Positions 4,046 through 37,762 of a stretch of DNA of 64,000 bases are shown here, piece by piece; within the stretch, counting starts at the first letter, position 1; every line of letters starts with the position of its first letter. The translations under genes and the position numbers were made by a program. The stretch is from Variovorax sp. OV329 (lineage in GTDB: Bacteria > Pseudomonadota > Gammaproteobacteria > Burkholderiales > Burkholderiaceae_C), in NCBI RefSeq assembly GCF_900114785.1, contig NZ_FOUG01000006.1, positions 186,001 through 250,000 on the forward strand, read 5' to 3'. The notes beneath the pieces are model-generated. The model worked only from the letters and a program-made list of their open reading frames with translations, made no database searches and was not told where the DNA came from.

Positions 4046-4825
4046 TCACTTGAGCCACTTGTCGGACACCTGCTGCAGGTTGCCGCGCTTGTCCAGCACG
4101 TCCCACACGAAGCCCATCACCCGGGTGTAGTCCGCGTCGTCTGCCGGCAGCATGAAGCCCAGCCAGTTCTTGGGCGTCAGCGGCGCATCCAGGTAGGCGG
4201 CGTACAGGCGCGGGTCGGCCTTGCTGTAGTGCAGGGCCTCATAGGTCTCGGTGATCATCACGTCGCCCTTGCCGTCGGCGATCAGCGCCGGGATCTCCGC
4301 GTTCTTCTCATGCGTGCTCACCTGCGCGGCCGTGAGGTTCTGCAGCACGTAAGCCTCGTTGGTGCCGCCGGGGTTCTTGATGACGCGCACGCCGGCCTGG
4401 TTCAGGTCCTGCGGCTTGCTGAACTTGGCCTTGTCCGCGCTGCGCACCAGCGCCACCTTGCCGAAGGGCGCGTAGCCCGGGAGCATCGCCACCTGGCGGA
4501 TGCGCGTCACGTTGCGGGTGATGCCGCCCACGGCCAGGTCGAACTTGTCGGACTGGATGTCCTTCATCAGGTTGGGCCAGCTGGTCTGCACGTACTCCAC
4601 CTTCACACCCAGTTCCTTGGCCATGAGCTCGACGACTTCGATGTCGTGGCCCGAGAAGCCATCGTCCGTCTTGATGGCGAAGGGCCGATAGTCGCCGGGG
4701 GTGCCCACGCGCAGCACCTTGGTCTCCATGATCTTGTCCAGCCGCGGGCCGGCCTGGGCGGTGTGCGTGAAGGCGAGGCTGGCCAGCGCGAAGGCGGCCA
4801 GGGCGAGGATTCTCTTGGGGATCAT
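4046..4825 (-). CDS. Periplasmic solute-binding protein family 3, cyclohexadienyl dehydratase (PheC)-like
   Basis: A 259-aa protein with a signal peptide (MIPKRILALAAFALASLAFT, cleavage near AQA-G at 25-26). Segments RLDKIMETKVLRVGTPGDYR, TSWPNLM (81-87) and NPGGTN (151-156) match, from memory, those of periplasmic cyclohexadienyl/arogenate dehydratase PheC. Glu196 in ETYEA falls where PheC has its catalytic glutamate. PheC is a receptor-fold enzyme making phenylpyruvate or phenylalanine in the periplasm. No ABC permease or ATPase is adjacent, which fits an enzyme or orphan receptor. The start has a good signal peptide; a longer upstream extension does not. It could still be a plain amino-acid receptor. 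Confidence 0.8.
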   Translation of the reverse strand: MIPKRILALAAFALASLAFTHTAQAGPRLDKIMETKVLRVGTPGDYRPFAIKTDDGFSGHDIEVVELMAKELGVKVEYVQTSWPNLMKDIQSDKFDLAVGGITRNVTRIRQVAMLPGYAPFGKVALVRSADKAKFSKPQDLNQAGVRVIKNPGGTNEAYVLQNLTAAQVSTHEKNAEIPALIADGKGDVMITETYEALHYSKADPRLYAAYLDAPLTPKNWLGFMLPADDADYTRVMGFVWDVLDKRGNLQQVSDKWLK

Positions 4826-4856
4826 GTGCTTGCCACTCCAATGTTGATCGATCGTT

Positions 4857-4907
4857 GCGCCATGGCGCGGCGGGCAGCTTAACCGGCTGCCCTGCTGCAT
4901 CGCAGCA
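4857..4907. promoter_or_regulatory. Three consecutive inverted repeats in a divergent intergenic region
   Basis: Perfect dyads lie side by side: GCGCCATGGCGC (4857-4868); GGGCAGC, 7 nt, GCTGCCC (4872-4892); TGCTGC, 3 nt, GCAGCA (4893-4907). They sit between the PheC-like gene (start 4825, leftward) and the SDR operon (start 4999, rightward), so they may be operator sites for the divergent promoters or RNA hairpins in a leader. Which protein would bind is unknown. Confidence 0.45.
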
Positions 4908-4998
4908 CGAAAAACCAATCTTTTGTTGGGGGCCCCGGGCCAGGGGCGCTGCTGGAATCTCCCCACGCGTGAATCGAACGCGGACAGGAGACAAACAC

Positions 4999-5760
4999 AT
5001 GATCGAACTGCAGGGCCGACGAGCCCTCGTGACGGGAGCGGCGCAGGGCCTGGGCCTGGCCATTGCCCGATTGTTCGTCGAGCGCGGCGCGCAGGTGATG
5101 CTCGCCGACATCGACGAGGCGGGTGCCGGCAAGGCCGCCGATGAACTCGGCCCCATGGCGCGCTCCGTGCGCTGCAACGTGACCTCGGCAGCAGACCTCG
5201 CCCGCGCCGTCGAAGCCACCACGCAGGCCTTCGGCGGCATGGACACCCTCATCAACAACGCCGGCATCGAGATCGTCAAGCCGCTGCTCGACCACTCCGA
5301 GGAAGAGTTCGAGCGGATCATGGCCATCAACGTCAAGGGCGTGTTCCTGGGCATGAAGCAGTCGCTGGGCGCTCTGGTGGCCTCGGGTCGCGGCTCCATC
5401 GTCAACATCTCCTCGCTGGCGGGCGTCAACGGCGTGCCGCTGTTCGGCTGCTATGCGGCTTCCAAGGGGGCCGTGCTGCAGCTCACCCGCACGGCTGCGG
5501 CAGAACTGAAGCAGGCGGGCGTGCGCGTCAACGCGGTGTGCCCGGGCTTCATCGGCACCGCCATGGTCGATCGCCTGATTCCCACGGTGGAAGCCGCCGT
5601 GGGTGTGCCCTTCGATGCCCTGGTCGCGGTCAAGCAAGGCCGCCTGGGCACCGCGCAGGAAGTGGCCGAGATGACCGCCTTCCTCGCTTCCGACGCCGCC
5701 AGCTGGACGACCGGCTCCCACTACATCCTGGACGGCGGCCTGTCTGCCGGATTGCTATGA
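4999..5760 (+). CDS. SDR-family oxidoreductase (first gene of a catabolic operon)
   Basis: A classical short-chain dehydrogenase of 253 aa. Cofactor motif TGAAQGLG is at 12-19, NNAG at 86-89, and the catalytic Ser138/139, Tyr152 and Lys156 lie in ISS and YAASK. Asp37 after the second strand (LADID) suggests NAD(H) preference. It likely oxidises a secondary alcohol or 3-hydroxyacyl-type substrate. It has a GGAGA site at 4986-4990 and opens a co-directional run of CoA-metabolism genes. The next SDR starts inside its stop codon (ATGA), implying translational coupling. The substrate is unknown. Confidence 0.92.
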   Translation: MIELQGRRALVTGAAQGLGLAIARLFVERGAQVMLADIDEAGAGKAADELGPMARSVRCNVTSAADLARAVEATTQAFGGMDTLINNAGIEIVKPLLDHSEEEFERIMAINVKGVFLGMKQSLGALVASGRGSIVNISSLAGVNGVPLFGCYAASKGAVLQLTRTAAAELKQAGVRVNAVCPGFIGTAMVDRLIPTVEAAVGVPFDALVAVKQGRLGTAQEVAEMTAFLASDAASWTTGSHYILDGGLSAGLL

Positions 5761-6524
5761 GCAAGAAGCTGCTTCAAGACAAGGTCGCCATCGTCACGGG
5801 TGCCGGGCGCGGGCTGGGCGAAGCCGTGGCACGGGCCTACGCTGCCGAGGGTGCGAAGGTCGTCGTGTCCGACATCGATGCCTCCGCCGCGCAGAAGGTG
5901 GCCGACTCGCTGCCCGGCGCCATCGCCGTGGCCTGCGACGTGCGCAAGTCCGAGCAGGTGAAGGCGCTGGTCGATGCAGCGGTGAGCAAGCACGGGCGCC
6001 TGGACATCATGGTGCCCAACGCCGGCGTGGCGCGTGTCGCACCGCTGGTATCCACCAGCTACGAGGAATGGCGCGAGGTCACCTCGGTCAACCTCGACGG
6101 CGTGTTCCTGTGCATCCGCCATGCGGCGCCGGCCATCATCGCCGCGGGCGGCGGCAGCATCATCAACATGGCCTCGGTCACGGCCAAGGCCGCCTGCGCG
6201 CTCATCGGCAGCTACGCGGCGGCCAAGGCGGGCGTGGTCTCGCTCACGCAGACCGCGGCGGTGGAACTGCGGGCGCACAAGGTGCGGGTCAACGCGATCC
6301 TGCCGGGCTTCATCGACACCGAGCTGGTGAAGTCGCACATCCCCGAGTTCGAGGAGCAGCTCAAGCTGCCCGACTTCGGCGCAGTGGTCGCGCAGCGCCA
6401 GGGCCGCTACGGCACGGTGGAGGAGGTGGCCCACCTGGCCGTGTTCCTCGCCTCGGAGCGCTCCAGCTTTTCCACCGGCAGCGGCTTCGTGCTCGACGGC
6501 GGCGTCAGCTCGTCGCTGCTCTGA
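5757..6524 (+). CDS. SDR-family oxidoreductase
   Basis: A 255-aa short-chain dehydrogenase with TGAGRGLG at 14-21, NAG at 88-90, catalytic Ser140, Tyr153 and Lys157 (YAAAK), and Asp39 in VSDID typical of NAD users. It overlaps the preceding SDR gene by 4 nt. The two differ enough to be separate enzymes acting on successive or stereoisomeric intermediates rather than a recent duplication. Soluble and cytoplasmic; substrate not predictable. Confidence 0.92.
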   Translation: MSKKLLQDKVAIVTGAGRGLGEAVARAYAAEGAKVVVSDIDASAAQKVADSLPGAIAVACDVRKSEQVKALVDAAVSKHGRLDIMVPNAGVARVAPLVSTSYEEWREVTSVNLDGVFLCIRHAAPAIIAAGGGSIINMASVTAKAACALIGSYAAAKAGVVSLTQTAAVELRAHKVRVNAILPGFIDTELVKSHIPEFEEQLKLPDFGAVVAQRQGRYGTVEEVAHLAVFLASERSSFSTGSGFVLDGGVSSSLL

Positions 6525-6565
6525 CCGAGCCGGCACCCCCAACGAATTCCAAGGAGAGATTCAAG

Positions 6566-7693
6566 ATGAGCAAGAAACCTGTGGTGGTCTACGGCGCCTC
6601 CGGCTACACCGGGCGCCTGGTGTGCGAATACCTGCGCGAGTACAACATCCCCTTCATCGCCGCGGGCCGCAGCGCCGAGAAGCTCGAGGCGGCGATGAAG
6701 TCCAACGTGGCGGGCATCGAGACCGCGAGCTACGAGGTGGTGGAGGTGGCGCATTCGGTGAAGGCGCTCACCGAGCTGTTCACTGGTGCGTCGGTGGTGC
6801 TCAACACCGTGGGACCCTTCGCCAAGTTCGGTCCGGAAGTGGTGCAGGCCTGCCTGGCGGCCAAGTGCCACTACACCGACACCACCGGCGAGCAGGACTG
6901 GCTCATCACGCTCGAGCAGGAGTGGGGCGCCAAGTTCGCCGAAAAAGGCTTGCTGCTGTCTCCGGGCCTGGCCCAGATGTACACCACGGGGGAGATCGCG
7001 GCCCAGCTGTGCCTCGAGACGCCCGGGCTGGACACGCTGGACATCGCCGTGTTCTGGGGCGGCAGCCCCACCATCGCGTCGACGCAGACCATCCTGGTCA
7101 ACGCCGCCACCTCCAAGGCCTTCTACCTGGAGCAGAACGAGTACAAGGAATGGCAGCCGGACGCCGGCCTCTACCAGCTCGCGATTCCCGGCCAGCATGA
7201 GATGGCGCTGGCGCTGCCCTGGGGCGGCACCTCGCACCCGGTGTGGTTCAAGCGCGATCCGCGCGTGGCCAACGTCAAGGTGCTGGGCGGCGTGTTCAAC
7301 AAGCCGCTGATGCTGGGCGTGCCGCAGATCGTGGCAGCGGCGCTCAAGGCCACCGAGGGCATGAACGAGCAGGACCGCTACGAGGCGCTGGCCAAGACGG
7401 CCGCGAGCGTGATGAGCACCATGCCGCCGCGCGAGAACCCGCGCATCAACAAGTCGGTCGATTCGGTGCATGCCTCCGGGCCGCTGGGCCGTGTGCACTG
7501 CGTGATCTTCGGCAACTGCAACTACAAGCAGACGGGCCTGCTCAACGCCTACGCCGCGGCTTCGCTGCTGCAGCAGCCGCCCAGGCGCGCCGGTTTTGCC
7601 TCGGGCTGCCAGGCCTTCGGGCACCACGAGCTGCTGGGCGTGCTGCGCAGCTTCGGCCTGGTGCAGGAACCGGTCATCACCCGCGCGAGCTGA
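6566..7693 (+). CDS. Saccharopine dehydrogenase-like / trans-acting enoyl-reductase-type oxidoreductase
   Basis: A 375-aa protein beginning MSKKPVVVYGASGYTGRLVC, a GxxGxxG Rossmann motif of the saccharopine-dehydrogenase NADP-binding family. Members include trans-acting enoyl reductases of lipid and polyketide pathways, and many have no known substrate. It has a strong AAGGAGA ribosome site at 6551-6557. Sitting between two SDRs and a CoA ligase, it probably reduces or oxidises an intermediate of the same pathway. True saccharopine dehydrogenase is unlikely because no lysine-pathway gene is near. Confidence 0.8.
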   Translation: MSKKPVVVYGASGYTGRLVCEYLREYNIPFIAAGRSAEKLEAAMKSNVAGIETASYEVVEVAHSVKALTELFTGASVVLNTVGPFAKFGPEVVQACLAAKCHYTDTTGEQDWLITLEQEWGAKFAEKGLLLSPGLAQMYTTGEIAAQLCLETPGLDTLDIAVFWGGSPTIASTQTILVNAATSKAFYLEQNEYKEWQPDAGLYQLAIPGQHEMALALPWGGTSHPVWFKRDPRVANVKVLGGVFNKPLMLGVPQIVAAALKATEGMNEQDRYEALAKTAASVMSTMPPRENPRINKSVDSVHASGPLGRVHCVIFGNCNYKQTGLLNAYAAASLLQQPPRRAGFASGCQAFGHHELLGVLRSFGLVQEPVITRAS

Positions 7694-7698
7694 CGCAC

Positions 7699-9243
7699 GT
7701 GCGCCTCGTCGACTACCTGGACAAGGGCGCCCAGCTGGGCGCCGATTCGCCCTGCCTCACCATGGGCGAGAGCGACCTGAGCTACGCGCAGGTGCAGCGC
7801 TTCAGCTGGCGCGTGGCCCGAGGCCTGCAGCGCGCGGGCGTGCGCCCGGGCGACAAGGTGGCGGTGCTCTCGAGCAACGACGCGCATGCCTTCGCCACCG
7901 TGTTCGGCATTTCGCGCGCGGGTTGCGTGTGGTGCCCGGTCAATCCGCGCAACGAGGCGGCCGAAAACGCCTTCGTGCTGGACGCCTTCGACTGCGCCTG
8001 CCTGGTCTTCCACAGCAACTACGCGCCCATGGTCGAGCAGATGCGCGCGCAGTGGCCCAAGCTGCGCGCCCTGGTGTGCCTGGACAAGCGGCAGGTCTTC
8101 GCAGCTTCCATGGACGAGTGGCTCGACGGCCTTAGCGAGGAACCGACCGACATCGCGCCGCCCGACGACGTGGCCATGATCGCCGGCACCGGCGGCACCA
8201 CCGGCCGGCCCAAGGGCGTGATGCTCACGGGCCGCAACCTGGAGACCATGTCGGCGCTCACGCTGATGGGCTACCCCTTCGAGGGCCGGCCCTGCTACCT
8301 GGCACTGGCGCCGCTCACCCATGCGGCCGGCGTGCTGTGCCTGCCGGTGATGGCGCTGGGGGGGCGCGTGGTCATCATGCCCAAGCCCGACCTGGGCGAC
8401 TTCCTCTCGCTCATCGAGCGGCACCGCGTCACCCACACCTTCCTGCCGCCCACGCTCATCTACATGCTGCTGCAGCACGAGAAGCTGGCGAGCACCCGGC
8501 GCGATTCGCTGCAGTGCTTCTGGTACGGCGCCGCGCCCATCGCGGCCGCGCGCCTGGAAGAGGCATTGGAGAAGATCGGGCCGGTGATGGCGCAACTCTT
8601 CGGCCAGACCGAGGCGCCGATGATGATCTCCATGATGTCGCCGCGCGAGCACTTCAACGCCGACGGCACGGTGGCGCGCGCTCGCCTGTCCTCGGCCGGC
8701 CGGCCCGGACCGCTCGTGCAGGTGGCCACGATGAACGCCGATGGCGAGCTGCTGCCCAGCGGCGAACGCGGCGAGATCGTGGTGCGCTCCTCGCTGGTGA
8801 TGGGCGGCTACTACAAGGACGCGGCGGCCACCGCAGAGGCCTCGCGCTTCGGCTGGCACCACACCGGCGACATCGGATATCTCGACGAAGAGGGCTTCCT
8901 CTACATCGTCGACCGCGCCAAGGACATGATCATCAGCGGTGGCTTCAACGTCTACTCGGTCGAGGTCGAGGCCGCGCTGCTGCAGCACCCGGACGTGCAG
9001 GACAGCGCCGTGATCGGCCTGCCCGACGAGAAGTGGGGCGAGCGCGTGGTGGCGGTGCTGCAGCTGCGGCCGGGCCGCGCGCTGGCGGCCGAGGAGGTCA
9101 TCGCCTTCGTCAAGGCGCGCATCGGCAGCGTCAAGGCGCCTAAGCAGGTGGAATTCTGGGACGACCTGCCGCGCTCCAAGGTCGGCAAGGTGATGAAGAA
9201 GGACGTGCGCGCCACGCTGCTGCACAAAGGCGGCGCCACATGA
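7699..9243 (+). CDS. AMP-dependent acyl-CoA synthetase/ligase
   Basis: ANL-superfamily ligase of 514 aa that activates a carboxylic acid to its CoA thioester through an acyl-adenylate. The P-loop GTGGTTGRPKG is near residues 167-177; FGQTEAPM, HTGDIGYLDEEG and the hinge SGGFNVYSVEVEA follow, with the catalytic lysine in SKVGKVMKKD. The GTG start 5 nt after the preceding stop gives VRLVDYLDKGA, typical of this family; the first ATG downstream would remove part of the N-terminal domain. Acid specificity is unknown. The 3-prime end overlaps the thiolase start (ATGA). Confidence 0.9.
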   Translation: MRLVDYLDKGAQLGADSPCLTMGESDLSYAQVQRFSWRVARGLQRAGVRPGDKVAVLSSNDAHAFATVFGISRAGCVWCPVNPRNEAAENAFVLDAFDCACLVFHSNYAPMVEQMRAQWPKLRALVCLDKRQVFAASMDEWLDGLSEEPTDIAPPDDVAMIAGTGGTTGRPKGVMLTGRNLETMSALTLMGYPFEGRPCYLALAPLTHAAGVLCLPVMALGGRVVIMPKPDLGDFLSLIERHRVTHTFLPPTLIYMLLQHEKLASTRRDSLQCFWYGAAPIAAARLEEALEKIGPVMAQLFGQTEAPMMISMMSPREHFNADGTVARARLSSAGRPGPLVQVATMNADGELLPSGERGEIVVRSSLVMGGYYKDAAATAEASRFGWHHTGDIGYLDEEGFLYIVDRAKDMIISGGFNVYSVEVEAALLQHPDVQDSAVIGLPDEKWGERVVAVLQLRPGRALAAEEVIAFVKARIGSVKAPKQVEFWDDLPRSKVGKVMKKDVRATLLHKGGAT

Positions 9244-10424
9244 GCCGGCGCGTCTTCGTCGCCGGCGTCGGCATGATCCCCTTCGTGAAGCCCGGCGCGA
9301 ACGACCCGTATCCGGTGATGGGCGCCAAGGCCGGGCGGCTGGCGCTGGCCGATGCCTGCATCGGCTACGAGGCGGTGCAGCAGGCCTACGTGGGCTACGT
9401 CTACGGCGACTCCACCAGCGGGCAGCGGGCGGTGTACGGGCTGGGCATGACGGGCATCCCGGTGGTCAACGTCAACAACAACTGCTCGACCGGCTCGACC
9501 GCGCTCTTTCTCGCGCGGCAAGCCATCGAGGGCGGCGCGGCCGATTGCGTGCTGGCCCTGGGCTTCGAGCAGATGAAGCCCGGCGCGCTCAACACCGTCT
9601 TCAACGACCAGCCGAGTCCCTTCGAGGACTTCGAAGCGCAGGCCGCCGAGCTGGTCGGCATGCCCGACCTGCCGCTGGCCCTGCGCTACTTCGGCGGCGC
9701 GGGCCTGGCGCACATGCAGAAGCACGGCACGCCGCTGGAGGCCTTCGCGGCCATCCGCGCCAAGGCGAGCCGGCATGCAGCGCGCAACCCGCTCGCACTG
9801 CTGCGCCAGGAACTCACGACCGAGGACGTGATGAATGCGCCCGTGCTCTGGCCCGGCGTGCTCACCCGCCTGATGGCCTGTCCGCCCACCTGCGGCGCGG
9901 CCGCGGCGCTGCTGGTCAGCGAGGACTTCGCGCGCCGCAACGACCTGCGCACCGATGTGTTCATCCGCTCGCAGGCGATGACCACCGACACGCCAGGCAC
10001 TTTCGAGAGCCGCGACATGATGGCGCTGGTGGGCTACGGCATGAGCCGGTCGGCGGCGCAGAAGGTCTACGAAGACGCGGGCGTGGGGCCCGGCGACCTG
10101 GACGTGGTCGAGCTGCACGACTGCTTCGCCCACAACGAGCTCATCAGCTACGAGGCCCTGGGCCTGTGCGCCGAAGGCGGTGCTGCCGGCTTCATCGCCG
10201 ATGGCCTCAACACCTACGGCGGGCAGGTGGTGACCAATCCCTCGGGTGGCCTGCTGTCCAAGGGCCATCCGCTGGGCGCCACCGGCCTGGCCCAGTGCTA
10301 CGAGCTCACCCACCAGCTTCGCGGCACGGCGAAGGCGCGCCAGGTGGAGGGCGCGCGCCTGGGCCTGCAGCACAACCTGGGCCTGGGCGGCGCGTGCGTT
10401 GTCACGCTGTATCAGGCAAACTGA
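9240..10424 (+). CDS. Thiolase-fold protein, SCP-x/lipid-transfer type
   Basis: A 394-aa thiolase-superfamily protein of the sterol-carrier-protein-x/lipid-transfer branch. Nucleophilic Cys82 lies in NNNCSTGSTALF, and the C-terminal half has VELHDCFAHNEL and SKGHPLGATG with the catalytic histidines. Such enzymes cleave branched or cyclic 3-ketoacyl-CoA side chains, or act as aldolase partners. It overlaps the acyl-CoA ligase gene by 4 nt. Together with the ligase and SDRs it suggests beta-oxidation-like breakdown of a non-standard acid. Confidence 0.88.
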   Translation: MSRRVFVAGVGMIPFVKPGANDPYPVMGAKAGRLALADACIGYEAVQQAYVGYVYGDSTSGQRAVYGLGMTGIPVVNVNNNCSTGSTALFLARQAIEGGAADCVLALGFEQMKPGALNTVFNDQPSPFEDFEAQAAELVGMPDLPLALRYFGGAGLAHMQKHGTPLEAFAAIRAKASRHAARNPLALLRQELTTEDVMNAPVLWPGVLTRLMACPPTCGAAAALLVSEDFARRNDLRTDVFIRSQAMTTDTPGTFESRDMMALVGYGMSRSAAQKVYEDAGVGPGDLDVVELHDCFAHNELISYEALGLCAEGGAAGFIADGLNTYGGQVVTNPSGGLLSKGHPLGATGLAQCYELTHQLRGTAKARQVEGARLGLQHNLGLGGACVVTLYQAN

Positions 10425-10438
10425 AGGACGAACAACGC

Positions 10439-13219
10439 ATGCAGGAGACAGGGATGGCGCGGTCCGCCCGGTCCGTGGGAGCTGCCAAGGCATCGGCCGC
10501 CGTGCTGGTGGAGTCGCGCCTGGTGCCGCCCCAGCTGTCGGCCACCACGCTGCTGGCCCGGCCCGGCCTTTCCACCCTGCTGCATACGGGCGTCGGCAAG
10601 CGGCTGGTCTGCATCACGGCGCCGGCCGGCTACGGCAAGACCACTGCGCTGACGCAGTTCGTGTCGCAGCTGGAGCCGCATGGCGTCACGGTCGCCTGGC
10701 TCAGCCTCGAGGCGCAGGACAACGACCCGCTGCTCTTCTTCCGCTACCTCGCCGCCGCGCTGAACCATGCGGACCCGCGCCTGGGCCGAAGCGTGCTGGC
10801 GCAGACGGCCGGCGGCAGCCTCGCATCGCCCGATGCCATCGTCGCTTCGCTGCTGAGCGACCTCGGCACCGACTGCGGCCGGCTGCTGCTGGTGCTGGAC
10901 GATTTCCATCTCATTCAGCACGAAGGCGTGCACCGGCATATCGAATGGCTGGCGGGCCACCTGCCGCCCAACGTGGGCGTGGTCATTGCCAGCCGCACGC
11001 GCCTGCCACTGTCGCTGAGCCAGTGGCGCGTGCGCAACCAGCTGCTGGAGCTGGACGCCGCGCATTTCGGCCTGGCGCTGGACGAGGCGGCCGACTTCGT
11101 GGGCCGCGTCAGCGGCGCGCCGCTCGCGCGCGAGCAGTTGCGGGCGCTGCACGATCGCACCGAGGGCTGGATCGCCGGCCTTCAGCTGGCCTCGCTGGCA
11201 CTGCGCGAAAGCGGCGACCGTGGCGCCTTCCTGCGCGACTTCTCCGGCAGCGACCGCGACATCACCGACTACCTGGGCGAGCACGTGCTCGACAGCCTGC
11301 GGCCCGACCTGCGCGACTTCCTGCTCGACACCGCCGGCCTGGAGCGCTTCTGTGCCGAGCTGTGCGACGAGGTGCTGGGCCGCAGCGACAGCCGTGCGCT
11401 GCTGGCCGAGGTGCAGTCGCGCAATCTCTTCCTCTCGGGCCTGGACCGCACCCGCACCTGGTTCCGCTACCACCACCTGTTCGCGGACTACCTGCGCAGC
11501 CGTAGCCGAGAGCGGCAGCCGGAGCAGAGCCGCGCGATCAGCCTGCGCGCCAGCGCCTGGTTCCAGCGCCAGGGGCATCTGCACGAGGCGATCCGCTATG
11601 CCTTCGACGGGCAGGACTTCGAGCGCGCCGCCGACCTGGTGGCCGAGTTCTCCGCCGAGCTGGTGCAGCACCGCGGCGAGCACGCCACCTTGCTGGGCTG
11701 GCTGGCGCGCCTGCCGCAGCACCTGGTGCACGCGCGGCCGAAGATCCGCGTCGGCCATGCCTGGTCGCTGGTGCTCACGCGCCGCTACGCCGAGGCCGAG
11801 CAGGAACTGCGCGCGCTGGAACAGGCCTGCAGCGAAAGCGGCGACGCCGAACTGCGCTGCATGGTCGAGATGATCCGCTGCGTGTACTGGGCGCATGCGG
11901 GCGAGCCCCTGCAGGCCAAGGCCACCAGCGAGACCTGGCTCAAGAGCTGGCCGCGTGCCGACGCCTTCTGCACCGGCGTGGTGGCCAACGTGCTGGCCAG
12001 CGGCTGCTGCGCCACCGACGCCTTCGAACAAGGCGAGCAGGCGCTGGCGGTCGCCCGGCGCTCCTTCGGCGAGTCGCACGCGGACTACGGCCTCGCTTGG
12101 GCCGCCGCCCTGGCCGTGATGCTGGCGATTCGCCGAGGCGACTACCACGAGGCCATGGTGCAGGTGAAGGCCGGCATCGCGGTCGTGGAGCGCAACCTGG
12201 GCCTGGCTTCCTACGCCGGCTCCATGCTGGCGTTGCTGGCGGCCGAGGTCTGCTACGAGCAGGGCGACCTGGCCGGCGCGCAGACCTTCGTGGACGTGGG
12301 GCTGCCCTACGTGGACGACCACGGCCTGGTCGAGATGACCACCGCCGGCTACCTCACGCGCGCGCGCCTGCTGCGCCTGCGCGGCGAGGTGGCGCAGGCC
12401 GACAGCTGCCTGTTGGAAGGCGAGTCACTGGGCCACCGGCTCAAGCTGCAGCGGCTGGCGCTGATCCTTTCGGCCGAGCGCTGCGCACTGCGGCTGCACG
12501 CGGGCTCGACCGAGGAGGCGCAGAAGCTGGGGCGCTCCTACGGCCTGATCGGCTACGGCGCCGGCAACACGCCGCAGGCGCCCGCCGCGCCCATCGAGGA
12601 CGACAGCGTCTGCCTGCTGCACCTGCGGCTGCGCCTGGCGGGAGCGCAGGGTGGCAACGTGGCAGGTGCGCTGAACGATGCGTTGCGGCGCGCCCTGCGG
12701 GACAACCACCGCGCCCAGGTCGCGCGGCTGCTGGTGCTCAAGGCGGTCCACCAGCACCGCGCCCAGGAAGGCGCGCAGGCCCTGCGCACGCTGGACGAGG
12801 CCCTGGACCTTTCCGCGCGATGCGGCCTGGTGCGCAGCCTGGTCGACGGCGACCCGGTGGTGCTGGACATGATCGAGACCATCCGGGCCAATCGCGGCGG
12901 CCGCCCCGCTCAGGGCTCGGGGCAGGCGCCCGAGGCCTACCTGGAGCAGCTCCTGGTGGCCGCGGGCCGCTCCGGCGAGGCCTCGCCGCGCACCGTGCGG
13001 GCCGGCACCAGGCCGGGCGTGGCGTCCGAACTGCTCACCGAGCGCGAACTGAAGATCCTGCGCCTGCTCAAGGCCGGCCTGGGCAATCGCGAGCTGGCGC
13101 AAAGCCTGTTCGTGTCCGAGGCGACGGTGAAATGGCACCTGCACAACATCTTCGCCAAGCTGGGCGTGAAGAACCGCACCAGCGCCCTGGCCCGCGCGCA
13201 GGAAAACTCGCTGCTGTGA
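10439..13219 (+). CDS. LuxR-family ATP-dependent activator of the MalT/LAL type
   Basis: A large regulator of 926 aa. Its N-terminal STAND ATPase has Walker A APAGYGKTT at 61-69 and Walker B LLLVLDDFHL. A long helical TPR-like sensor region follows, and a C-terminal GerE/LuxR helix-turn-helix (LTERELKILRLL, SEATVKWHLHNIFAKLGVKN). MalT-like proteins oligomerise and activate transcription when they bind ATP and an inducer; relatives include AlkS and AcoK of catabolic operons. It follows the thiolase by 14 nt with an AAGGA site and is likely the operon's own activator, whose inducer would be a pathway substrate. An alternative start is the Met at residue 6. Confidence 0.92.
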   Translation: MQETGMARSARSVGAAKASAAVLVESRLVPPQLSATTLLARPGLSTLLHTGVGKRLVCITAPAGYGKTTALTQFVSQLEPHGVTVAWLSLEAQDNDPLLFFRYLAAALNHADPRLGRSVLAQTAGGSLASPDAIVASLLSDLGTDCGRLLLVLDDFHLIQHEGVHRHIEWLAGHLPPNVGVVIASRTRLPLSLSQWRVRNQLLELDAAHFGLALDEAADFVGRVSGAPLAREQLRALHDRTEGWIAGLQLASLALRESGDRGAFLRDFSGSDRDITDYLGEHVLDSLRPDLRDFLLDTAGLERFCAELCDEVLGRSDSRALLAEVQSRNLFLSGLDRTRTWFRYHHLFADYLRSRSRERQPEQSRAISLRASAWFQRQGHLHEAIRYAFDGQDFERAADLVAEFSAELVQHRGEHATLLGWLARLPQHLVHARPKIRVGHAWSLVLTRRYAEAEQELRALEQACSESGDAELRCMVEMIRCVYWAHAGEPLQAKATSETWLKSWPRADAFCTGVVANVLASGCCATDAFEQGEQALAVARRSFGESHADYGLAWAAALAVMLAIRRGDYHEAMVQVKAGIAVVERNLGLASYAGSMLALLAAEVCYEQGDLAGAQTFVDVGLPYVDDHGLVEMTTAGYLTRARLLRLRGEVAQADSCLLEGESLGHRLKLQRLALILSAERCALRLHAGSTEEAQKLGRSYGLIGYGAGNTPQAPAAPIEDDSVCLLHLRLRLAGAQGGNVAGALNDALRRALRDNHRAQVARLLVLKAVHQHRAQEGAQALRTLDEALDLSARCGLVRSLVDGDPVVLDMIETIRANRGGRPAQGSGQAPEAYLEQLLVAAGRSGEASPRTVRAGTRPGVASELLTERELKILRLLKAGLGNRELAQSLFVSEATVKWHLHNIFAKLGVKNRTSALARAQENSLL

Positions 13220-13294: not shown

Positions 13295-14479
13295 ATGACC
13301 CAACGCGACATCTTCGTGGTCGGCACCGCCCGCACCGCCATCGGCACCTTCGGCGGCGCGCTGAAGGACGTTCCCAACACCCAGCTGGCCACCACCGTGG
13401 TCAAGGCCGCCATCGAGCGCAGCGGCGCGTCAGCTGCAGACGTGGGCCACCTGGTCATGGGCAACGTGATTCCCACCGACACGCGCGATGCCTACCTGAG
13501 CCGCGTGGCCGCCGTGGACGCCGGCTGCCCCATCGAGACGCCGGCCTTCAACGTCAATCGCCTGTGCGGCTCGGGCCTGCAGGCCATCGTGTCGGCGGCG
13601 CAGGCCATTGCGCTGGGCGACTGCGACATCGCGATCGGCGCCGGCTCCGAGTCGATGAGCCGCGGTCCGTATTTCGACACGGCCGCCCGCCACGGCGCGC
13701 GCATGGGCGATGCCCAGCTGATCGACTACATGATCGGCATCCTGCACGACCCCTGGGAGAAGATGCACATGGGCATCACCGCCGAGAACGTGGCGGCGCG
13801 CTACGGCATCTCGCGCGAGCAGCAGGATGCGCTGGCGGTGCAGAGCCAGCAGCGCGCGGCAGCCGCCATCGCCGCCGGCCGCTTCAAGGAGCAGATCGTC
13901 CCGGTGGAAGTGAAGACCCGCAAGGGCGTGGTGCTCTTCGACACCGACGAGCACGTGCGCGCCGACACCACGCTGGACGTGCTGGCGAAGATGAAGCCCG
14001 CCTTCAAGAAGGACGGCCTGGTCACCGCGGGCAATGCCTCGGGCATCAACGACGGCGCGGCCGCCGTGGTGCTGGCGGAAGGTGCGCGCGTCAAGGCGCT
14101 GGGCCTCAAGCCGCTCGCGCGACTGGTGGGCTATGCGCACGCCGGCGTGGAGCCGGCGTACATGGGCATCGGCCCGGTGCCGGCCACGCGCAAGGTGCTG
14201 GAGCGCACCGGCCTGAAGGTCAGCGACCTGGACGTGATCGAGTCCAACGAGGCCTTCGCGGCCCAGGCCTGCGCGGTCATCAAGGAACTGGGCTTCGATC
14301 CGGCCAAGGTCAACCCCAACGGCTCGGGCATCTCGCTGGGCCACCCGGTGGGCGCCACCGGCGCGATCATCACGGTGAAGGCGCTGGCCGAACTGCAGCG
14401 CGTGCAGGGCCGCTATGCGCTGGTGACCATGTGCATCGGCGGCGGCCAGGGCATCGCCGCGATCTTCGAACGGGTCTGA
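13295..14479 (+). CDS. bktB: Beta-ketothiolase / acetyl-CoA C-acyltransferase (BktB-like)
   Basis: Biosynthetic/degradative thiolase of 394 aa, very similar along its length to Cupriavidus BktB as I remember it. Active-site Cys91 in NRLCGSGLQA, GHPVGATG histidine and the second cysteine in CIGGGQG are present, as is the ESNEAFAAQ loop. BktB condenses or cleaves C4-C10 3-ketoacyl-CoA and feeds polyhydroxyalkanoate synthesis or beta-oxidation. An AGAGA site precedes the ATG. Its stop overlaps the arfB start (TGATG). It may work with the upstream ligase/SDR genes, but a housekeeping role is equally possible. Confidence 0.9.
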   Translation: MTQRDIFVVGTARTAIGTFGGALKDVPNTQLATTVVKAAIERSGASAADVGHLVMGNVIPTDTRDAYLSRVAAVDAGCPIETPAFNVNRLCGSGLQAIVSAAQAIALGDCDIAIGAGSESMSRGPYFDTAARHGARMGDAQLIDYMIGILHDPWEKMHMGITAENVAARYGISREQQDALAVQSQQRAAAAIAAGRFKEQIVPVEVKTRKGVVLFDTDEHVRADTTLDVLAKMKPAFKKDGLVTAGNASGINDGAAAVVLAEGARVKALGLKPLARLVGYAHAGVEPAYMGIGPVPATRKVLERTGLKVSDLDVIESNEAFAAQACAVIKELGFDPAKVNPNGSGISLGHPVGATGAIITVKALAELQRVQGRYALVTMCIGGGQGIAAIFERV

Positions 14480-35437: not shown

Positions 35438-35875
35438 TCAGCTCTTGAGCGTCGCCTTCAGCGTGATCTCCGGCACGCTGGCCAGCGCCTTCGACAGCGG
35501 GCAGCCCGCCTTGGCGCCCGCGGCCAGTTCGTCGAACTTCGCCTGGTCGATGCCCGGGATCACCGCTTCCATTTCCAGTGCGATGCGGTCGATCTTGAAG
35601 CCGGGGCCGTCCTGCACCAGCCGCACCGCCGCCTTGGTATCGATAGAGGTGGCCGTGATGCCGGCGCCTTCCAGCGCGAAGGCGAAGGCCATGGTGAAGC
35701 AGCCGGCGTGCGCGGCGCCCAGGATCTCTTCCGGGTTGGTGCCCTTGCGGTCGTCCCCGAAGCGGCTGCCGAAGCCGTAGGGATAGTCCTTGAGCGCGCC
35801 GGTCTCGGTGCTGATGGCGCCCTTGCCGGTCTTGCCGGCACCTTCCCAATGAACACTGGCTTTTTTCTCTGGCAT
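35438..35875 (-). CDS. OsmC-family organic-hydroperoxide reductase
   Basis: A 145-aa OsmC/Ohr-superfamily protein. Peroxidatic Cys59 (HAGCF) and resolving Cys125 (AGCPLS) are present, with Arg38 and Glu50 in positions used to activate the thiol. N-terminal YPYGFGSRF and GTNPEEILGAAHA match OsmC rather than Ohr. It detoxifies organic peroxides in the cytoplasm. The ribosome site is AAGGAG; TATAAG on the minus strand at 35914-35919 could be a -10 element. Confidence 0.93.
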   Translation of the reverse strand: MPEKKASVHWEGAGKTGKGAISTETGALKDYPYGFGSRFGDDRKGTNPEEILGAAHAGCFTMAFAFALEGAGITATSIDTKAAVRLVQDGPGFKIDRIALEMEAVIPGIDQAKFDELAAGAKAGCPLSKALASVPEITLKATLKS

Positions 35876-36067
35876 GAAAAACTCCTTTGCGACTCAGGTG
35901 GATGGAGGGCATGCTTATACGCCCTTGCCGCGTCGCCGGTCTGTCAGCGGATGGCTCCGCATGCCAGGCTCCGGCCGCGTCGCGAAGGTGACGCCATCAG
36001 GGCCAACCCGCTTCGACGCGACGCGGGGTCCTGTGTAGGCTCACAACCCCCTGGAGACCACGCCCTC

Positions 36068-37762
36068 ATGGAACGCCCGCACTACAAGTTCTGGCCCAAG
36101 CGCCTGCCCAAATCGATTCAAGTCCCCGCCACCTCGCTGTGGCACAACCTGGCCACCAACGCGGCCCGCTATCCGGACAAGCCGGCGCTGATCTTCTTCG
36201 GCACCGAGACCACCTATTCGCAGCTCGCGGACCAGGTCGAGCGCCTGGCCGGCACGCTGCATGCCCTGGGCGTGAAGCGCGGCGACCGCGTGGTGCTGGA
36301 CATGCAGAACAGCCCGCAGCTGATCGTGGCCCACTACGCCATCCTGCGCGCCAATGCGGTGGTGGTGCCGGTGAACCCGATGAACCGGGCCGAGGAGCTC
36401 AAGCACTACATTACCGACCCCGATGCCAAGGTCGCCATCACCACCGGCGAGCTGGCGGCCGAGTTGGCCAAGGCCAGCGACGCGCTCGATCCCAAGGACC
36501 GCCTGAAGCACCTGATCGTCACCCAGTACACCGACGGCTTCGACGCGCAGGTGCAGGGAGACATCGCTCCGCCGCCCGCATGGCGCGACTGGCTGCTCAC
36601 CCGCCACCCCCTGCCGCAGCTTGCCGGCGGCGAGGTCATCAGCTGGACCGACGCCTTGAACGCCGGCCACCCCGCGCCCGAGCACGTGGTGGGCATCGAC
36701 GACATGGCCCTGCTGCCCTATACCAGCGGCACCACCGGCCTGCCCAAGGGCTGCATCCACAACCACTCGAGCCTGATGCACAACGCCACCGCAGGCCAAC
36801 TGTGGGGACTGGGCTCGGCCGAGACGGTGGTGCTGGCGGTGGTGCCCATGTTCCACATCACCGGCACGGTGAGCATGCTGCACACCTCGATCATGATGGG
36901 CGCCACGCTGGTCATCATGCCGCGCTGGGACCGCGACCTGGCCGGCCGCCTGATCTCGCGCCACAAGGTCACGAGCTGGACCAACATCCCCACGATGGTG
37001 ATCGACCTGATGGCCAGCCCCAACTTCGCCAACTACGACCTGAGCAGCCTGCAGTACATCGGCGGCGGCGGGGCGGCCATGCCGCAGGCCGTGGCGCAGC
37101 GCCTGCTGGAGCAGTTCGGCCTGAAGTACCTGGAGGGCTACGGCCTGACCGAGACGGCCGCGCCCTCGCATGCCAATCCCTACGAGAACCCCAAGCAGCA
37201 GTGCCTGGGCATTCCCTACATGAGCACCGACTCGCGCGTGGTCGACCCCGACACGCTGCAGGAACTGCCGGTGGGCGAATCGGGCGAGATCATCACGCAC
37301 GGGCCCGGCGTCTTCAAGGGCTACTGGAAGCGCCCCGAGGCCGATGCGGCCGCGTTCATCGAGTTCGAGGGCAAGCGCTTCTTCCGCACCGGCGACATGG
37401 GCCGCATGGACGAGGACGGCTACTTCTTCATCACCGACCGCCTCAAGCGCATGATCAATGCCAGCGGTTTCAAGGTCTGGCCGGCCGAGGTCGAGCTGCT
37501 GATGTTCCGCCACCCCGCGATCCAGGAAGCCTGCGTGATCGCCACCAAGGACAGCTACCGCGGCGAGTCGGTCAAGGCCGTGGTCGTGCTGCGGCCCGAC
37601 TTCAAGGGCAAGGTCAGCGAGCAGGACATCGTCGACTGGTGCCGCGAGAACATGGCCGTCTACAAGATCCCGCGCGTGGTGCAGTTCGCCGATGCACTGC
37701 CCAAGAGCGGCAGCGGCAAGGTGATGTGGCGCCTGCTGCAGGAGGCGGAAGACAAGGGCTGA
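36068..37762 (+). CDS. Fatty-acid/aryl acyl-CoA synthetase (AMP-binding)
   Basis: A 564-aa ANL ligase. P-loop YTSGTTGLPKG near 218-228, GYGLTETAAPSH, FFRTGDMGRMDEDGYFF, hinge RLKRMINASGFKVWPAEVE, and catalytic lysine in KSGSGKVMWR. It resembles long-chain fatty-acid ligases of FadD3/DmdB type. The ATG has a GGAGA site 11 nt upstream. It is transcribed alone, divergent from osmC. The acid substrate is unknown. Confidence 0.9.
   Translation: MERPHYKFWPKRLPKSIQVPATSLWHNLATNAARYPDKPALIFFGTETTYSQLADQVERLAGTLHALGVKRGDRVVLDMQNSPQLIVAHYAILRANAVVVPVNPMNRAEELKHYITDPDAKVAITTGELAAELAKASDALDPKDRLKHLIVTQYTDGFDAQVQGDIAPPPAWRDWLLTRHPLPQLAGGEVISWTDALNAGHPAPEHVVGIDDMALLPYTSGTTGLPKGCIHNHSSLMHNATAGQLWGLGSAETVVLAVVPMFHITGTVSMLHTSIMMGATLVIMPRWDRDLAGRLISRHKVTSWTNIPTMVIDLMASPNFANYDLSSLQYIGGGGAAMPQAVAQRLLEQFGLKYLEGYGLTETAAPSHANPYENPKQQCLGIPYMSTDSRVVDPDTLQELPVGESGEIITHGPGVFKGYWKRPEADAAAFIEFEGKRFFRTGDMGRMDEDGYFFITDRLKRMINASGFKVWPAEVELLMFRHPAIQEACVIATKDSYRGESVKAVVVLRPDFKGKVSEQDIVDWCRENMAVYKIPRVVQFADALPKSGSGKVMWRLLQEAEDKG

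Follow-up and report, generated by a model that had tools for sequence, protein, structure and literature searches.

A six-gene CoA-dependent operon with its own LAL regulator in Variovorax sp. OV329 and the mosaic module around its DUF5938 gene

The locus described here is a row of six genes at positions 4999-13219 of a 64,000-nucleotide (nt) stretch of the genome of Variovorax sp. OV329, referred to below as the window. The genes encode two short-chain dehydrogenases (SDR1 and SDR2), a protein of the DUF5938 family, a coenzyme A (CoA) ligase, an SCP-x-type thiolase and a regulator of the LAL family, and a 39-nt element lies upstream of them:

4893..4931, plus strand: 39-nt element, YGCTGCRNYGCARCANNNNAAACCAAYCTTTNGKTGGGS, with two dyads, TGCTGC-N3-GCAGCA and CCAAY-CTTTN-GKTGG; putative LAL binding site
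4999..5760, plus strand: SDR1, short-chain dehydrogenase; YAASK at 152; adh_short 193 bits
5757..6524, plus strand: SDR2, short-chain dehydrogenase; YAAAK at 153; adh_short 188 bits; overlaps SDR1 by 4 nt
6566..7693, plus strand: DUF5938 protein with a saccharopine-dehydrogenase-type NADP-binding domain; Pfam 436 bits; 41-nt gap after SDR2
7699..9243, plus strand: AMP-forming acyl-CoA ligase, FadD type; AMP-binding 249 bits; GTG start; 5-nt gap after DUF5938
9240..10424, plus strand: SCP-x (SCP2-thiolase type-1-like) thiolase; PRK08256 669 bits (cut-off 436); overlaps the ligase by 4 nt
10439..13219, plus strand: LAL regulator, 926 amino acids; TPR_MalT 67 bits, GerE 62 bits; 14-nt gap after the thiolase

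A first-pass annotation of this DNA had described six tightly coupled genes here, and their positions, the single strand and the spacing by 4-nt overlaps or gaps of 5, 14 and 41 nt bear it out. A promoter scan returned 0 promoters, and a terminator scan 2 terminator-like sites versus 3.6 expected. Loci L009, L010 and L011 contain the whole set, each gene at 84-95% identity, and L031 and L039 have the same order at 69-89%. As this order recurs in five further loci, the arrangement is not due to chance, and the six-gene operon is confirmed as genuine.

The steadiest member of the module to which these genes belong is DUF5938, not the thiolase. The window protein passed the PF19362 gathering score by far (436 bits, cut-off 27), and Arg35 was invariant in 24 DUF5938 sequences. 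In all 69 DUF5938-holding genomes obtained when all draws were joined, a ligase gene either adjoins DUF5938 or sits one thiolase gene away. In the best 80 of 378 DUF5938 stretches, some of which, judging by their contigs being equally long, probably coincide with loci of the genus set, a ligase match follows within 2.5 kb in 76 loci, and SCP-x is present in 14; such part counts rest on tblastn, and the home-made gene caller merges some genes. In L062 and L074 the sequence stops too soon after DUF5938 for the ligase to be judged. In the Bradyrhizobium locus L080 (11113-21113), DUF5938 is accompanied by an SDR, and no ligase match was seen in the next 10 kb. Conserved linkage, by which the first-pass annotation proposed to judge the gene set, thus holds both for the five loci with the six-gene order and for the ligase, and the constant pairing of DUF5938 with a CoA ligase in the drawn genomes tells where in metabolism the DUF5938 reaction should be sought.

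What did not hold was the view of the whole gene set as the unit, because the module is a mosaic, in which DUF5938 stays and the regulator, the thiolase and the types of SDR and ligase are swapped. DUF5938 was found in 48 of 101 Variovorax genomes, with one locus per genome analysed. Thirty-seven of these loci have the order SDRt-DUF5938-ligase, where SDRt denotes the SDR type of cassettes with a TetR regulator; 35 of the 37 carry TetR and 2 carry SCP-x. The remaining 11, the window included, have the order SDR1-SDR2-DUF5938-ligase-LAL, with a window-type ligase in 4, a PRK07529-type ligase in 7, and SCP-x in 6. No case of SDRt mixed with SDR1 or SDR2 occurred among the 48 loci; outside this set, the Xenophilus locus L046 combines SDRt with LAL. 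On a tree of 46 DUF5938 proteins, in which an SDRt match above 50% was labelled TetR and L028, whose contig ends before LAL, was set as LAL-form by its SDR pair and 39-nt element, the LAL label changed 5 times, at least 2 of these changes being forced by well-supported branches. This indicates that the regulator and dehydrogenase end was exchanged around a steady DUF5938. Beyond the genus the distribution of DUF5938 is patchy: the counts, which include the window's own genome, were 8 of 150 genomes drawn from the family, 1 of 300 from the order, 2 of 274 from the class, 6 of 398 from the phylum (E up to 1e-50), and 11 of 396 around genome G1052.

Each of the two regulator forms is accompanied by its own DNA element. 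The window LAL has an N-terminal NTPase domain, a MalT-type TPR region and a C-terminal LuxR-type helix-turn-helix (HTH) domain, as found with Pfam. Little aligns between the upstream regions of 12 loci (the window, L028 and 10 LAL-form loci) apart from the 39-nt element, the ribosome-binding stretch and a short GAAT, and the 39-nt pattern was derived from this alignment, so that exact matches in these 12 loci are by construction. The element is present in all 15 distinct LAL-form loci, 13 of them with at most one mismatch and L140 and L143 with 6, and also in L028; the loci outside the source of the pattern have 1 (L046), 0 (L139), 6 (L140) and 6 (L143) mismatches. No copy was found elsewhere in 3.4 Mb of scanned loci, duplicates counted, at up to 6 mismatches, and the window genome holds a single copy at up to 3 mismatches, versus 0 for the backward control pattern. 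Since L046 has the element together with SDRt and LAL, the element tracks LAL and not the SDR pair. Identity is no more than 28-29% for the LALs of distant DUF5938 clusters, and the loci of the distant DUF5938-linked LALs (L092, L093, L152-L154, L180) lack the element. It is thus probably the LAL binding site, as far as its distribution can tell. We also considered a DNA hairpin, which was rejected, as the fold was no better than that of shuffled sequences (z -0.44).

The counterpart in the TetR form is the dyad TTGACN4GTCAA. Of 68 TetR-form loci, 56 have it in the gap separating TetR from SDRt, with 91 exact copies in all, often two in tandem; 1.31 Mb of their flanks contain none. The remaining 12 show near-matches by eye, as does the locus of the actinobacterium Tsukamurella (L090). 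Within the Variovorax set the exact dyad occurs in 29 of the 37 SDRt-form loci and in 0 of the 11 LAL-form loci. The 64 kb of the window contain no copy, and positions 4821-5000 none even with up to 2 mismatches. Counter to the pairing of dyad and TetR are one copy in L181 far from the cassette and the TetR-form locus L150, which has no exact copy. Nevertheless, the sharp localisation of the dyad is that of an operator-like site of the TetR form. Both regulator-DNA pairs are defined sharply enough for reporter testing, and the LAL pair could serve as a substrate sensor.

The surroundings of the operon suggest how it came to its place. A bktB-like gene (13295-14479) starts 75 nt after LAL; its product passed the subfamily cut-off (707 bits, cut-off 565) and missed that of the BktB equivalog (671 bits, cut-off 725). 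Among 30 bktB loci, 3 carry the operon (the window, L186 and L187), and in 11 of the 27 without it clpB lies at most 1.5 kb before bktB. One of eight larger regions (L217) is an operon carrier; among the other seven, clpB immediately precedes bktB in 4, stands 5.9 kb away in one, and was not seen in two. A divergent gene for a solute-binding protein and then the operon come after clpB in the window, L009, L010 and L011, and bktB follows LAL in the window, L009 and L186. Seven other LAL-form Variovorax loci have neither clpB nor bktB nearby. We infer that the operon was placed between clpB and bktB by insertion, and it is probably mobile. BktB as a seventh gene of the operon is unlikely: clpB, bktB and arfB often adjoin without the operon in other Variovorax, which makes BktB probably local background. 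A counterargument comes from two Variovorax plasmids, L138 and L089: past the end of a TetR-form cassette, on the other strand, they carry a 91% BktB homologue, which comes right after SCP-x in L138 and about 6 kb further on in L089. The solute-binding protein belongs to family 3 (4046-4825, minus strand, with a presumed start at 4825) and is kept in L009-L011; the stretch from clpB to the operon showed no permease gene.

As to the enzymes, SDR2 is 44% identical to SDR1, and strand 2, as read from the sequences, ends in Asp in SDR1, SDR2 and SDRt. Such an Asp favours NAD, and an Arg, like the invariant Arg35 of DUF5938, favours NADP; SDR1 and SDR2 thus look NAD-type. Both passed the cut-off of the broad NCBIfam subfamily PRK07231, 'glucose 1-dehydrogenase' (237 and 224 bits, cut-off 215), and both resemble FabG-type reductases, with scores under the FabG cut-offs. 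The ligase reached none of the curated cut-offs among the matches listed. It also falls short of acetoacetate-CoA ligase TIGR01217 (cut-off 521 bits), as the top of its 108 matches scored 421 bits and TIGR01217 was not in the best 25 of them. A further AMP-forming ligase is encoded in the window at 35480-37762 (323 bits). SCP-x passed the PRK08256 'lipid-transfer protein' subfamily and has the motifs CSTGS at 82, HDCF at 293, GHPLGATG at 342 and HNLGLGG at 378, all intact. It aligns along its length (454 bits) with the zebrafish SCP2-thiolase 6hsj; CSTGS, HDCF and GHPLGATG are common to both, and these three motifs hold the catalytic Cys and His. A Pfam scan found no SCP2 lipid-binding domain in it. 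SCP2-thiolase type 1 of animal peroxisomes acts on 2-methyl-branched substrates, and the kinship of the window thiolase hints at such branching. A single DUF5938 sequence matched none of the solved structures, and a profile search of them gave carboxyspermidine dehydrogenase as the best match (E 5.4e-6), over the NADP domain portion.

Two groups of relatives are informative about function. On the Phyllobacterium plasmid L091 (9629-19541), co-directional genes encode SCP-x (65%), an SDR, DUF5938 (66%), acetoacetate-CoA ligase, a polyhydroxyalkanoate (PHA)-synthase-like protein, a PHA depolymerase, an SDR and TetR. Here the ligase is an acetoacetate-CoA ligase by TIGR01217 (817 bits, cut-off 521), and the depolymerase passed TIGR02240 (298 bits, cut-off 251). 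The PHA-synthase-like protein passed PhaC_N (191 bits) and missed the class cut-offs (class II, 573 of 855 bits; class I, 425 of 623). The TetR falls in the same cluster as those of the TetR form, and a dyad TTGACN4GTCAA at 9538-9551 begins 91 nt before the SCP-x start. This context hints at 3-hydroxyalkanoates. The second group is a distant set of 12 loci of drawn genomes (L147, L148, L152-L154, L178-L184), whose DUF5938 proteins are 38-47% identical to that of the window (L147-L154) or 38-45% to that of L162 (L178-L184). An SCP2-type thiolase is near in 11 of the 12, and a LAL-like gene, 31-37% identical to the nearest reference, in 4 (L152, L153, L154, L180). In the sphingomonad-like loci L162 and L175-L177, DUF5938 is accompanied by SDR and ligase, with no thiolase match, and in Caballeronia about 10 kb separate DUF5938 from a PhyH gene.

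The first-pass annotation had read the genes as a catabolic operon that depends on CoA and has a LAL activator to itself. With catabolism as the probable role, this is supported, and the 39-nt element accompanying LAL strengthens the link of this regulator to the operon. The cyclic or branched compounds that it had suggested as substrates may or may not apply: the SCP-x kinship points towards 2-methyl branching, and the L091 plasmid towards 3-hydroxyalkanoates. Its remark that acyl-CoA dehydrogenase and hydratase are absent is true of the operon, but the absence tells little, since the window genome has 34 Acyl-CoA_dh_1 and 27 ECH_1 matches outside it, and we rejected it as a clue. We tentatively favour, with somewhat less than even confidence, a horizontally moved catabolic operon for acids already oxygenated at the beta carbon (3-hydroxy or 3-oxo acids). 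LAL would sense the substrate or its product, bind the element at 4893-4931 and turn the operon on. SDR1 and SDR2 would oxidise a 3-hydroxy acid to the 3-oxo acid with NAD+, perhaps acting on two enantiomers, or on the acid and the CoA ester. The ligase would then convert the 3-oxo acid into 3-oxoacyl-CoA, which SCP-x would cleave to acyl-CoA and acetyl-CoA, or propionyl-CoA with a 2-methyl branch. DUF5938 would be an NADP(H) enzyme working beside the ligase; it might reduce a double bond or a keto group that stands in the way of thiolysis. With such a substrate, acyl-CoA dehydrogenase and hydratase would not be needed in the operon. This reading explains why ligase and thiolase suffice and why there are two NAD-type SDRs, and the beta-keto-acid ligase in the ligase slot of L091 fits 3-hydroxy or 3-oxo acids. 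The regular ligase partner of DUF5938, the SCP2-thiolase motifs of SCP-x, the Asp of the SDRs and the Arg35 of DUF5938 also speak for it.

Several observations weigh against this reading. The commonest form of the module is thiolase-less: SCP-x had no match in 35 of the 37 SDRt-form Variovorax loci nor in any Bradyrhizobium locus. L080 and L084 have no ligase match after DUF5938 despite 10.0 and 1.8 kb of following sequence. PRK07231 was the only NCBIfam cut-off passed by SDR1 and SDR2 among the matches listed, and both missed those of 3-hydroxybutyrate dehydrogenase (TIGR01963, cut-off 307: 188 and 182 bits; NF009093, cut-off 258: 200 and 216 bits). The AlphaFold model of DUF5938 was unusable (mean pLDDT 47.6). 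In L091, gene gaps of up to 267 nt make a single transcript uncertain, and a plasmid search with its DUF5938 gave 16 records with no other above 66%, so the PHA-linked form is represented by this one plasmid. In the distant set, acyl-CoA dehydrogenase is in the same run in 8 of the 12 loci; a TonB receptor stands beside the run in L179, L184 and L175, and a LigB dioxygenase occurs in L183. These genes suggest bulkier substrates there.

A substrate of another kind would be terpenoid or other branched unsaturated acids, an account that we consider unlikely. By oxidation the SDRs would bring an alcohol towards the acid, which the ligase would activate; DUF5938, as an NADPH enoyl-CoA reductase, would remove a conjugated double bond; the middle part would fall to beta-oxidation enzymes encoded elsewhere in the genome; and SCP-x would cleave the 2-methyl-3-oxoacyl-CoA. 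Besides the acyl-CoA dehydrogenases of the distant clusters, the PhyH gene of Caballeronia and the numerous Acyl-CoA_dh_1 and ECH_1 matches of the window genome, this would agree with SCP2-thiolase type 1 being the nearest solved structure to SCP-x, and with the saccharopine-dehydrogenase NADP domain of DUF5938. Mycobacterial trans-acting enoyl reductases have this domain too, and may be kin of DUF5938. However, the presence of an acetoacetate-CoA ligase in L091 is at odds with this account, and no terpene gene was seen in the partly annotated flanks (L016, L089) of Variovorax loci, which is a weak argument. The PHA-synthase-like gene of L091 and the resemblance of both SDRs to FabG-type reductases would rather suit an anabolic set, in which thiolase condensation and SDR reduction build 3-hydroxyacyl-CoA for PHA or lipid, with DUF5938 as a reductase; this is quite improbable, given that a CoA ligase is almost always present, that the SDRs look NAD-type, that L091 has a PHA depolymerase as well, and that form-specific regulators would suit an inducible catabolic set. 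Least probable is a set of loosely related functions sharing one promoter without a single pathway, for although SDR, ligase, thiolase and regulator are exchanged and L080 and L084 lack a ligase in the available stretch, a swapped part gives way to another of its kind, and the DNA elements are specific to the forms.

Beyond the favoured 3-hydroxy or 3-oxo acid catabolism, it is conceivable, though rather doubtful, that DUF5938 founds an enzyme class for an undescribed step, NADP(H)-dependent and acting on a fresh acyl-CoA or its acid. It would then be the hallmark of a mobile module for catabolism, present in Comamonadaceae, Bradyrhizobium, sphingomonads and an actinobacterium, that has come on at least two occasions under the control of one or the other of two dedicated regulators, which have a DNA site each. 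No paper in the literature searched contains the name DUF5938, and its titles and abstract beginnings showed neither a description of this gene set nor a known pathway that fits, in line with the first-pass annotation.

The component families are all known, and the operon is a catabolic operon of a familiar kind. Its logic of dehydrogenase, acetoacetate-CoA ligase and thiolase is that of ketone-body or 3-hydroxybutyrate utilisation, and L091 even has a true acetoacetate-CoA ligase; the window differs by its FadD-type ligase, by SDRs below the 3-hydroxybutyrate dehydrogenase cut-offs, and by the extra DUF5938. SCP-x is like SCP2-thiolase type 1/PRK08256 in score, in motifs and in aligning along its length, but differs by its DUF5938 neighbour and the missing SCP2 domain. 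DUF5938 (PF19362) itself is a family without assigned function, of which the window protein is a clear member. Catabolic operons under LAL control are already known, AlkS and AcoK being examples of such regulators. The window LAL shares the NTPase-TPR-HTH architecture of the MalT/LAL regulators, yet it is not MalT, scoring 353 bits with the MalT equivalog NF003420 (cut-off 537).

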